From NCBI RefSeq assembly GCF_014842975.1, contig NZ_JACYXK010000026.1:62001-126000 (forward strand): a stretch of 64,000 nucleotides of DNA. Direction: 5' to 3'. This DNA comes from Rhodanobacter sp. DHB23 (lineage in GTDB: Bacteria; Pseudomonadota; Gammaproteobacteria; Xanthomonadales; Rhodanobacteraceae). This document shows, piece after piece, positions 6,132 to 47,985 of this stretch (the stretch's first letter is position 1; each line of letters begins with the position of its first letter). Both the position numbers and the translations under genes were made by a program. A model generated the notes under the pieces. That model had not been told where the DNA came from. It saw only the letters and a list, made by a program, of their open reading frames with translations, and ran no database searches.

Positions 6132-6167
6132 CCCTCTCCCCAACCCTCTCCCGCAGGCGGGAGAGGG
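6132..6167. repeat. REP-like hairpin repeat, CCCTCTCCC family
   Basis: The element consists of CCCTCTCCCCAACCCTCTCC followed by CGCAGGCGGGAGAGGG. The inner palindrome CCCTCTCCCGC / GCGGGAGAGGG forms a hairpin. Members of the same family occur at 25301-25342, 29079-29265, 36344-36385 and 37944-38060, always between genes or abutting them. Confidence 0.8.
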
Positions 6168-14305: not shown

Positions 14306-14696
14306 GTCCGGCCGCTTCCCAAGGCTCTGTTCGCGCTCTCCCGGCACCGCATGCCGTGACCTGATTGGCGTCGAGCCCCCCCTATGCGCCGATTGCCCCC
14401 CCCCCCTCCGGGCTGGGGGCGGCTGGGTGGGGGTGAAACCTTGCGAAAGACGCTCATGGATGGCTTTCGCAAGCGCTTGACCCCACCCCAGCCCTCCCCT
14501 GCACGCAGGGGAGGGAGACAGCACATGGCACGACTGGGACTCGACGCTGATCCGGATGCCATGAGAGCGTGAACAGGCTCTCCGGCAGGAGGGAAGCACC
14601 AGCGTTCGCAGACGGCAACGCAGCGTTCCGGTCGGGCCCGCTGCAAATCCGGCAGCAGCCCTTACTCTGGGGAGGTTCCCCACGAGGCTACCCGCC
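14306..14696. other. Intergenic stretch holding a palindromic REPIN-like unit
   Basis: There is no convincing gene in these 391 bases between deaD and ygiD. The main content is the paired inverted repeat at 14395-14515, plus an 11-base C run at 14396-14406. The rest shows a weak GAGG site ahead of ygiD and nothing else. Confidence 0.6.
14395..14515. repeat. REPIN-like pair of inverted CCCTCCCC elements, no gene inside
   Basis: A forward element at 14481-14515 (CCCCACCCCAGCCCTCCCCT plus hairpin end) differs at only two positions from the 35-bp elements flanking the DUF559 gene at 47.5-47.9 kb. A degraded reverse copy lies at about 14395-14434. Between them CTTGCGAAAG (14440-14449) and CTTTCGCAAG (14464-14473) form a perfect 10-bp inner stem. 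The whole unit is an imperfect palindrome of about 120 bases. Confidence 0.75.
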
Positions 14697-29078: not shown

Positions 29079-29265
29079 CCCCTCTCCCCTCGGGAGAGGG
29101 GTTGGGAATGAGGGTTCGGGTACACCGCTGCGCCTCGCTTCGACCGAACCCTCTCCCGGCTGGATTCGCGCCATCCATGGCGCTCACCCCGTTCGGGGCC
29201 GGCTTCGCCGTTCCGCAAGCGCTCCTGCGCCTGCAGGTCACCACCCTCTCCCGGAGGGAGAGGGA
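29079..29265. repeat. Cluster of REP-like repeats (CCCTCTCCC family)
   Basis: Three elements are present: one at 29079-29120 reading CCCCTCTCCCCTCGGGAGAG then GGGTTGGGAATGAGGG (reverse orientation), a half element near 29150-29164 (CCGAACCCTCTCCCGGC), and a hairpin at 29243-29265 (CCCTCTCCCGGAGGGAGAGG). They fill the 264 bases between the beta-helix and GH89 genes and place repeat DNA directly at the beta-helix gene's ribosome binding site. Confidence 0.75.
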
Positions 29266-37943: not shown

Positions 37944-38060
37944 GCACCCCTCTCCCGCTTGCGGGAGAGGGGCTGTGGAGAGGGTGCTTTTTTGCAACGC
38001 TGCAAAAAGCCGAACCCTCTCCCGCCTGCCGGCACCCTCTCCCGCAAGCGGGAGAGGGAG
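37944..38060. repeat. REPIN-like pair of inverted CCCTCTCCC elements
   Basis: A reverse element (37944-37987, CACCCCTCTCCCGCTTGCGG then GAGAGGGG...) and a forward element (38010-38060, CCGAACCCTCTCCCGCCTGC then ...CGCAAGCGGGAGAGGGAG) face each other around an inner stem TTTTTTGCA-ACGC-TGCAAAAA (37988-38008). The design is the same as the 14.4-kb unit although the hairpin sequence differs. It separates the GH79 and clan GH-D genes. Confidence 0.8.
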
Positions 38061-47472: not shown

Positions 47473-47507
47473 CCCTCCCCTGCTTGCAGGGGAGGGTTGG
47501 GGTGGGG
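47473..47507 (-). repeat. REP-like 35-bp element (CCCTCCCC family), reverse copy beside DUF559
   Basis: It reads CCCTCCCCTGCTTGCAGGGG then AGGGTTGGGGTGGGG. It is the exact reverse complement, 35 of 35 bases, of the element at 47897-47931. The CCCTCCCCTGC/GCAGGGGAGGG part forms a hairpin. It starts 12 bases after the aldolase stop and ends eight bases before the DUF559 stop codon. Confidence 0.92.
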
Positions 47508-47514
47508 TCGCTCT

Positions 47515-47859
47515 TCAATCCTTGCGCGGTTCCAGATGCCGCCACACTTCTTCCAGCACCGCTTCGGTTCGCAGCAGCACGTCGTCATTCCAGAAGCGCA
47601 GCACGCGATAACCCAGTGCTTCGATGACCTGCGTGCGTTCCATGTCATAACGAGCAGCTTCCAGATGCTGCCCGCCATCGAGTTCCAGCACGAGCCTTGC
47701 GGGGACGCATGCGAAATCGACGATGTAGCCGGCAAGCGGATATTGGCGACGGAACTTGAAACAGCCCAACTGCTCATGCCGCAAACGTTGCCACAGGTGC
47801 CGTTCGGCGTCGGTAGCCGCGTGACGGAGCTGGCGCGCAAGCATCCATTTGCGTTGCAT
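47515..47859 (-). CDS. DUF559 endonuclease-like protein (Vsr / PD-(D/E)XK fold)
   Basis: This is a 114-residue protein. MLARQLRHAATDAERHLWQRLRHEQLGCFKFRRQYPLAGYIVDF is the DUF559 opening; catalytic candidates are Asp48 (YIVDF) and Glu59, Asp61 and His65 in LELDGGQH, then YRVLRFWNDDVLLRTEAVLEEV. The family shares the Vsr very-short-patch-repair nuclease fold. GGAG lies seven bases before the ATG at 47859; a longer in-frame reading upstream (to 49188) is antisense to other genes. It stands alone, bracketed on each side by identical inverted 35-bp REP-like elements, so it looks like the coding core of a repeat-bounded unit. Confidence 0.85.
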   Translation of the reverse strand: MQRKWMLARQLRHAATDAERHLWQRLRHEQLGCFKFRRQYPLAGYIVDFACVPARLVLELDGGQHLEAARYDMERTQVIEALGYRVLRFWNDDVLLRTEAVLEEVWRHLEPRKD

Positions 47860-47896
47860 GGCCGACTCCAAAAGAAGGTTTCCGCAAGCCCGTTTA

Positions 47897-47931
47897 CCCC
47901 ACCCCAACCCTCCCCTGCAAGCAGGGGAGGG
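47897..47931 (+). repeat. REP-like 35-bp element (CCCTCCCC family), forward copy beside DUF559
   Basis: It reads CCCCACCCCAACCCTCCCCT then GCAAGCAGGGGAGGG. It is identical, inverted, to 47473-47507 and differs at two positions from the forward element at 14481-14515. It lies 37 bases upstream of the DUF559 start. Confidence 0.92.
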
Positions 47932-47985
47932 AGTTTTGAAGTCCGACGCTAGACTCTGGCAGCGCATGATGAGAAAGAGAGCACC

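Follow-up and report, generated by a model that had tools for sequence, protein, structure and literature searches.

A DUF559 nuclease gene bracketed by BoxC/PIT/TM-type hairpin repeats, and a candidate enzyme for the spread of this repeat family

A small DUF559 nuclease gene enclosed by two exactly inverted copies of a hairpin repeat lies at 47473-47931 of the 64,000-nt stretch of Rhodanobacter sp. DHB23 DNA analysed here (the window), and this bracketed unit is both real and general. It is nearly certain that DUF559 and these repeats belong together. With moderate confidence we regard them as a dedicated pair, in which the nuclease would cut its own repeat variant and spread gene-less inverted doublets in trans. 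Of several readings we favour the one in which the enzyme moves the repeats; this would amount to a RAYT-like partnership built on an unrelated enzyme. Since the pairing recurs in many bacteria, DUF559 is a good candidate for the spreader of a repeat family lacking a known mover.

Results

The bracketed unit and its enzyme

The DUF559 gene (47515-47859, minus strand) encodes a 114-aa, single-domain Vsr-fold protein of the PD-(D/E)XK type, with the conserved motif ELDGGQH intact. The left arm (47473-47508, plus strand) is a BoxC/PIT/TM-type repeat, designated variant A, composed of the hairpin CCCTCCCCTGC-TT-GCAGGGGAGGG and the gene-facing third block TTGGGGTGGGGT; the right arm (47896-47931, minus strand) is its exact reverse complement, and its third block faces the gene too. 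The initial annotation had described exact inverted repeats of 35 bp around a gene standing alone between them. Both points were borne out, with reverse complementarity exact over 36 nt, one base longer (47473-47508/47896-47931), an arm-to-arm interval of 387 nt, and gaps between arm and reading frame of 6 nt on the left and 36 nt on the right (about 8 and 37 had been given). Both arms folded into hairpins in the folding computation. A DeoC/LacD-type aldolase gene neighbours the DUF559 gene on one side and an amidohydrolase gene on the other; just beyond the right arm, GTCCGACGCTAGACTC at 47941-47956 resembles the terminal repeat of a ~200-nt element described below.

The protein matched Pfam PF04480 with E 1.9e-40 (137.6 bits, cut-off 20.6), and PF04480 and PF18741 were the only Pfam domains found in it. 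Its AlphaFold2 model (pLDDT 89.8, pTM 0.84) gave as best PDB match NGO0050 of Neisseria gonorrhoeae (3hrl), followed by the homing endonuclease I-Bth0305I and then Vsr (weak, E 0.015). Neither Pfam nor the model comparison identified the window enzyme as an HUH/Y1 (IS200/IS605-like) transposase, and matches in PADLOC were weak (best E 4.8e-4). Twelve columns were invariant among 52 aligned DUF559 sequences, including E66, D68 and G69, and H72 was conserved in at least 90% of them; these conserved residues are presumably catalytic. YcjD is listed as a PD-(D/E)XK member in a passage of a 2005 paper (PMC1189080), and the DUF559 family is discussed as a putative nuclease or repair enzyme in parts of PMC1189080 and PMC12907096. 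The latter links a Caulobacter DUF559 protein, VsrA, to a cytosine methyltransferase, which counts against a dedicated repeat partnership; no cytosine methyltransferase gene was present among the two direct neighbours of the window gene.

Repeat class and third-block design

By their sequence, the arms are of the BoxC/PIT/TM intrastrand-triplex kind and not ordinary REPs, each consisting of a hairpin built from one pyrimidine and one purine arm and, on its gene-facing side, a G-rich third block. Such repeats have been known from E. coli since the 1990s and, according to passages of PMC4666352, are reported from more than 260 genomes; the same source reports triplex formation in vitro, for the E. 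coli motif rather than for the variants described here. Counting flanks, which are not independent events, the third block mirrors the purine arm in 167 of 215 hairpins of DUF559 flanks, while shuffled tails averaged 17. Where a mirror could be distinguished from a direct repeat it prevailed by 83 to 6, with 82 ties. Triplets were perfect in 134 of the 167, compared with a mean of 34 when tails were swapped between stem variants, and therefore stem variant and third block change together, as in CCTTCCCCC with third block GGGATGGGGG and TCTCCCCC with AGAGGGGG.

Several alphaproteobacteria-like genomes carry a second small hairpin between stem and third block (L181, L182, L051, L168, L187 and L192), a longer version of the triplet design. 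At another locus (L021, 1462-1860) the DUF559 reading frame continues into the downstream repeat, so that an arm can encode the C-terminal tail of the protein (LTPTPLPEGEGL).

Bracketing of DUF559 genes and controls

Bracketing was scored as the best ungapped inverted match between the 220 nt upstream and the 220 nt downstream of a gene. The DUF559 table held 140 loci among the matches listed, with weak matches left out; 136 of them, from 89 Pseudomonadota genomes, had full flanks, and 10 of the 136 have a stop in the match frame. The score was at least 15 in 90 and at least 20 in 73 of these loci: 34 and 29 of 43 in the window's family, and 53 and 41 of 81 in the rest of the phylum. In other families of the order, just 3 of 12 loci reached either threshold, and 63 of the 136 loci scored below 20, without clear brackets; both figures speak against a dedicated pair. 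A named set of 80 loci, overlapping the first by at least five loci from genomes already among the 89, gave 51 and 38 of the 75 with full flanks.

The hairpin enrichment at DUF559 borders that had been named as a check proved strong. When the gene position was shifted by 700 nt at the same loci, 1 of 383 windows scored at least 15 and none at least 20, so the bracketing is not due to chance; a shift of 600 nt gave 6 and 2, and a shift of 800 nt none. This control covers the 136-locus set together with 55 named loci; 25 of the 80 were set aside as truncated, duplicate or hand-excluded (many of them MAG rows). Among the best 30 matches to ParE toxin genes from 61 relatives, 9 truncated loci were dropped and none of the 21 usable loci was bracketed, none scoring above 12.

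GIY-YIG genes (PF01541) were rejected as a neutral control, and since they proved repeat-flanked themselves, ParE and the shifted windows were used. The best 30 GIY-YIG matches of 61 relatives comprised 27 loci with full flanks after 3 truncated ones were dropped (25 in short frames, 2 in long); inverted flanks scored at least 15 in 15 and at least 20 in 11 of these, and 0 of 54 GIY-YIG shifted windows were bracketed. The repeats are different ones. Two other families, the GTCATTCC..GGAAT type and the GTTCGCCCTGAG..CTTCGAC type, stand on both sides of 15 of the 27 loci (10 and 5; L062-L091, e.g. L067, L071, L081, L089 and L090), and such repeats were on both sides of 1 of the 136 DUF559 loci. 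Triplex-type repeats flanked 77 of the 136 DUF559 loci on both sides versus 0 of the 27 GIY-YIG loci.

On one contig (C44 of G007, NZ_MUNP01000077.1) DUF559 hits occur in two pairs at mirror positions, as if its two halves were inverted copies of each other, probably through an assembly fault; given these positions, the paired hits were not read as recent copies. The truncated end copies (L008 and L132) were excluded from the flank counts and L132 from the tree, L137 being one of the inner pair.

Repeat copies in the window and the genome

Relatives of the repeat had been described as scattered, which holds: dozens occur in the organism's own genome and gene-less copies in the window. There were 60 matches to the repeat in the genome (some places on both strands), and the hairpin-plus-third-block pattern gave 145 hits (some places double-counted), compared with 0 for the pattern read backwards. 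In the window, a gene-less doublet of another variant, CCCTCTCCCGC..GCGGGAGAGGG, lies at 37948-38058 and resembles the arms around the DUF559 copy of contig C13, which is broken. At 29080-29264 there are two hairpins without a gene, of the CCCTCTCCC..GGGAGAGGG type, with a clear third block in the left one only, and a single gene-less hairpin with third block TTGGGGAGAGGG lies at 6144-6167 on the minus strand.

The initial annotation had also placed the same repeats without a gene at 14.4 kb. An arm without a gene is indeed present there, as an intact variant-A hairpin (14492-14515) with its third block (14480-14491), but it sits inside a different, composite element of ~200 nt (14361-14554) whose left part is decayed, and it was therefore rejected as a plain empty version of the window unit. 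Similar ~200-nt elements with terminal inverted repeats CTGATTAGCGTCGAGTCTCAG and an A/B doublet inside were seen elsewhere (L213-L219, L221 and L230). By eye, the ends of the 14361-14554 element resemble the CTGATTAGCGTCGAGTCTCAG repeats around about nine other genomic copies, and about nine doublets of the genome lie within a larger ~200-nt element of this sort, bearing its own terminal repeats.

Four DUF559 loci occur in the genome; one is broken, and another was matched only over positions 26-108. Of the 89 distinct pattern hits, taken from the first listed places of the 145, 85 belong to the four variants found around these four loci (28, 15, 11 and 31 listed copies per variant). Inverted doublets were seen in 16 of 20 genomic regions examined, at least 11 of which had been chosen because two hits had shown there. 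By eye, 15 of the 16 gene-less doublets combine variants A and B, one with a truncated B, unlike the window gene, which has variant A on both sides; inverted pairs in E. coli likewise combine a type A with a type B according to a passage of PMC4666352. As single strands, two doublets folded into long hairpins (L223, -40.7 kcal/mol, z -5.3; L224, -31.8 kcal/mol, z -3.2), as REPINs are described to do in part of PMC3116915.

Co-occurrence and enzyme-variant pairing

Among 299 Pseudomonadota genomes, 83 were DUF559-positive at E <=1e-20, and at least five repeats occurred in 58 of these 83 versus 9 of the 216 DUF559-negative genomes (Fisher p 4e-32). Permuting presence within families (20,000 permutations) gave a mean of 43.5 and a maximum of 51 against the observed 58, and the backwards-read pattern was nearly absent across genomes, with at most 5 hits in each. 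Two groups of genomes count against the pairing: nine have at least five repeats without DUF559 at the cut-off (G113, G229, G301, G108, G149, G078, G144, G200 and G286), and 12 DUF559-positive genomes have no hit of the searched pattern, some of them having other stem variants.

The stem variant follows the enzyme. On a tree of 127 DUF559 domains (106 columns, 65 of 124 inner branches open; sequences with stops or shorter than 80 aa excluded), 58 flanked genes, classed by the stem of their upstream arm, required 19 changes of class, compared with a mean of 34.9 and a minimum of 30 in 300 shuffles; for the 18 genes of the window's family, 4 changes sufficed, the minimum possible for 5 classes. 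Whether a gene is bracketed at all is not congruent with the tree (33 changes versus a shuffled mean of 35.7), which weighs on the other side.

Enterobacteria-like loci and ycjD of E. coli

One family (f19, probably Enterobacteriaceae) was represented by 149 genomes, shared in part with the phylum sample; 18 carried DUF559 at E <=1e-20, and 12 weaker hits, one of them at E 1e-15, were scored negative. At least three boxC-type repeats were present in 15 of the 18 DUF559-positive genomes versus 5 of the other 131 (p 8e-14); because this threshold was chosen after the counts had been seen, we also give those for at least five repeats, 14 of 18 versus 5 of 131. A hairpin lay within 61 nt of the 3' end of the domain in 16 of the 18 DUF559 genes and an upstream arm was found in 1, so bracketing is not universal, a further point against the preferred reading. 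The usual form in this family is the gene with 3' repeats, often a doublet, rather than a bracket.

A DUF559 gene from one genome of this family had matches in 3,364 of 5,426 E. coli genomes, with a coverage below 80% of the gene, and the 10 matches listed were annotated as ycjD or DUF559 protein. In MG1655, ycjD (b1289) has by eye a decayed arm at its 3' end, and an exact boxC motif lies ~170 nt downstream. With the 23 boxC motifs in 4.64 Mb given for E. coli in PMC4666352, we calculated that ~0.4% of genes would have a copy no farther than 250 nt away. The DUF559-repeat pairing apparently includes E. coli.

Sites, inheritance and landing places

At the window's own site, nine other genomes of the genus lack the gene; five of them carry an orthologous gene-less doublet, of a variant differing from the window's arms, and two carry pairs of GTCATYCC-type repeats. 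A second site, between hpd and hmgA, was matched in 58 genomes, of which 30 loci were examined (L312-L341). Eight of these have a DUF559 gene flanked on both sides by hairpins; in one of the eight the gene has an apparent in-frame stop, in another the arms are decayed, and in two the right arm lies farther away. A GIY-YIG gene accompanied by repeats of its own is present at 2 loci, a single hairpin at about 3 and other sequence at 13. The remaining 4 are empty, with 18-26 nt and neither gene nor repeats; empty sites in relatives, another check named beforehand, were accordingly found in other genera of the family. The hpd-hmgA site serves two unrelated kinds of nuclease-repeat unit as a common landing place. 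None of the sites examined, here or elsewhere, showed a target duplication, which counts against spreading by the enzyme; at hpd-hmgA this was judged by eye, among relatives too diverged for strict comparison.

The 18 compared loci nearest the window gene by protein identity, its own included, form seven groups that have no flanking genes in common, and the flanking genes of each group are constant within one genus or a few genera. The unit is thus mostly inherited in place, yet it occurs at different places with its arms. Frequent inheritance of the DUF559 gene at a conserved site counts against an enzyme that moves repeats.

Discussion

RAYTs are thought to let REPINs spread in trans. We propose that 47473-47931 represents a comparable dedicated pair of enzyme and repeat, in which a stand-alone Vsr-fold DUF559 nuclease would recognise the folded form of its own BoxC/PIT/TM-type variant, a hairpin or perhaps a triplex exposed on single-stranded or cruciform DNA. 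Once the folded repeat is cut or nicked, inverted doublets without a gene would be able to spread in trans; we infer three steps, namely cutting of the repeat by the protein, the folded form as the substrate, and copying as a consequence of cutting. Computed support for this reading consists of bracketing, its breadth, the congruence of variant and enzyme clade and co-occurrence by genome, together with heterotypic doublets, mirror covariation of the third block, intact conserved residues and related units at several genomic sites.

A role in maintenance, in which the nuclease processes or repairs stalled hairpin or triplex structures at the repeats and is selected for chromosome protection with no spreading, is unlikely, although it accords with the conserved nuclease-type residues, the Vsr-like fold and a gene often inherited in place, and E. 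coli repeats have been linked to instability (in part of PMC4666352) and a Caulobacter DUF559 protein to DNA damage (in part of PMC12907096). Taken alone, it leaves the bracketing, the variant-clade congruence and the paralogue-specific variants without explanation. Homing endonucleases cut an allele, and repair copies their own gene into the site. A DUF559 enzyme cutting repeat doublets or repeat-free alleles could likewise be copied in with its arms, gene-less doublets being the remnants, and both the second-best PDB match, I-Bth0305I, and the gene-less doublet in place of the gene in five of nine relatives would suit such a course. We consider it a little less likely still, as the doublets at the window's own site belong to another variant than the window's arms, 4 of 30 hpd-hmgA sites have neither gene nor repeats, and the repeats far outnumber the DUF559 loci of the genome.

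Another enzyme, such as a RAYT, might instead move the repeats, with DUF559 as cargo or as a neighbour caught between copies; the repeats are abundant in intergenic DNA, which makes such capture possible. The absence of bracketing at score >=20 from all 383 shifted windows and at all 21 ParE loci, the other repeats of GIY-YIG genes, the congruence of enzyme and variant and the co-occurrence within single families make this improbable. Least credible, and in our view very improbable, is that the arms are ordinary bidirectional terminators of a small gene or stabilisers of its mRNA. They do fold as hairpins, but arms of the same locus match each other far better than upstream and downstream arms taken from different genomes do (73 of 136 versus 78 of 1,968 at a score of at least 20; 202 of 1,968 at 15), other small genes (ParE) are not bracketed, and we know of no role for a mirror third block in a terminator. 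E. coli copies, moreover, are said in the discussion of PMC4666352 to have been without terminator activity in earlier work.

The dedicated DUF559-repeat pair may be one instance of something wider. Tentatively, and somewhat short of advocating it, we suggest that short repeats driven by nucleases form an entire class in bacteria. Each member would pair a stand-alone nuclease with a hairpin repeat of its own, which the nuclease spreads as inverted doublets lacking the gene, and the nucleases would differ in fold: DUF559/Vsr would serve triplex repeats (with YcjD and boxC of E. coli K-12 among the pairs), and small GIY-YIG proteins repeats of the GTCATTCC and GTTCGCCCTGAG types. This would be convergent with RAYT/REPIN, the triplex fold itself being the recognition mark of DUF559. 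If the DUF559-repeat partnership holds, much of the short-repeat content of Proteobacteria is shaped by a Vsr-like nuclease instead of a transposase, and the parallel GIY-YIG case points to a general principle. A candidate enzyme partner in E. coli K-12, ycjD, makes the BoxC/PIT/TM puzzle testable at the bench.

Within the DUF559/YcjD/Vsr-like family (PF04480, 3hrl) the window protein is a clear member with its conserved residues intact. The literature, in the parts cited here, treats this family as a nuclease or repair enzyme without a link to repeats, and none of the titles and abstracts listed from open PMC papers mentioned a DUF559-, ycjD- or GIY-YIG-repeat pairing. The fold is shared with I-Bth0305I and Vsr; the window unit differs from the former in that no intron or intein was seen at it, and from the latter in that neither of the two genes beside it is a methyltransferase. 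With the BoxC/PIT/TM repeats it shares the hairpin with a third purine block and the heterotypic A/B inverted pairs, and enterobacteria-like DUF559 loci bear the boxC sequence itself. The difference is a DUF559 partner across many stem variants, whereas the 2015 study (PMC4666352), where it treats its E. coli repeat sites, reports no mobility genes near them. GTAG- and CGTC-tagged palindromes carry another tag, and a third block is not mentioned for them in the relevant part of PMC3733652, which says that the CGTC families lack a dedicated transposase; by eye, neither tag was present at the hairpin foot of the window arms or the listed stems.

The parallel with REP elements and RAYTs drawn in the initial annotation stands for the anatomy (inverted doublets, a variant that follows the enzyme clade, co-occurrence by genome) and fails for the repeats, which are of the BoxC/PIT/TM type. 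As in REP-RAYT systems, a single small nuclease gene lies beside its own repeat variant, at about half of the loci (score of at least 20), the inverted doublet is the apparent unit and many copies are gene-less. The enzyme, in contrast, is a Vsr-like PD-(D/E)XK protein where RAYT is an HUH/Y1 transposase, and the DUF559 repeats have a mirror third block and no GTAG foot; by enzyme class and tag, the DUF559 unit is therefore not a member of REP-RAYT. It looks as if a function resembling that of REP-RAYT is carried here by an enzyme class and a repeat class that both lie outside it.
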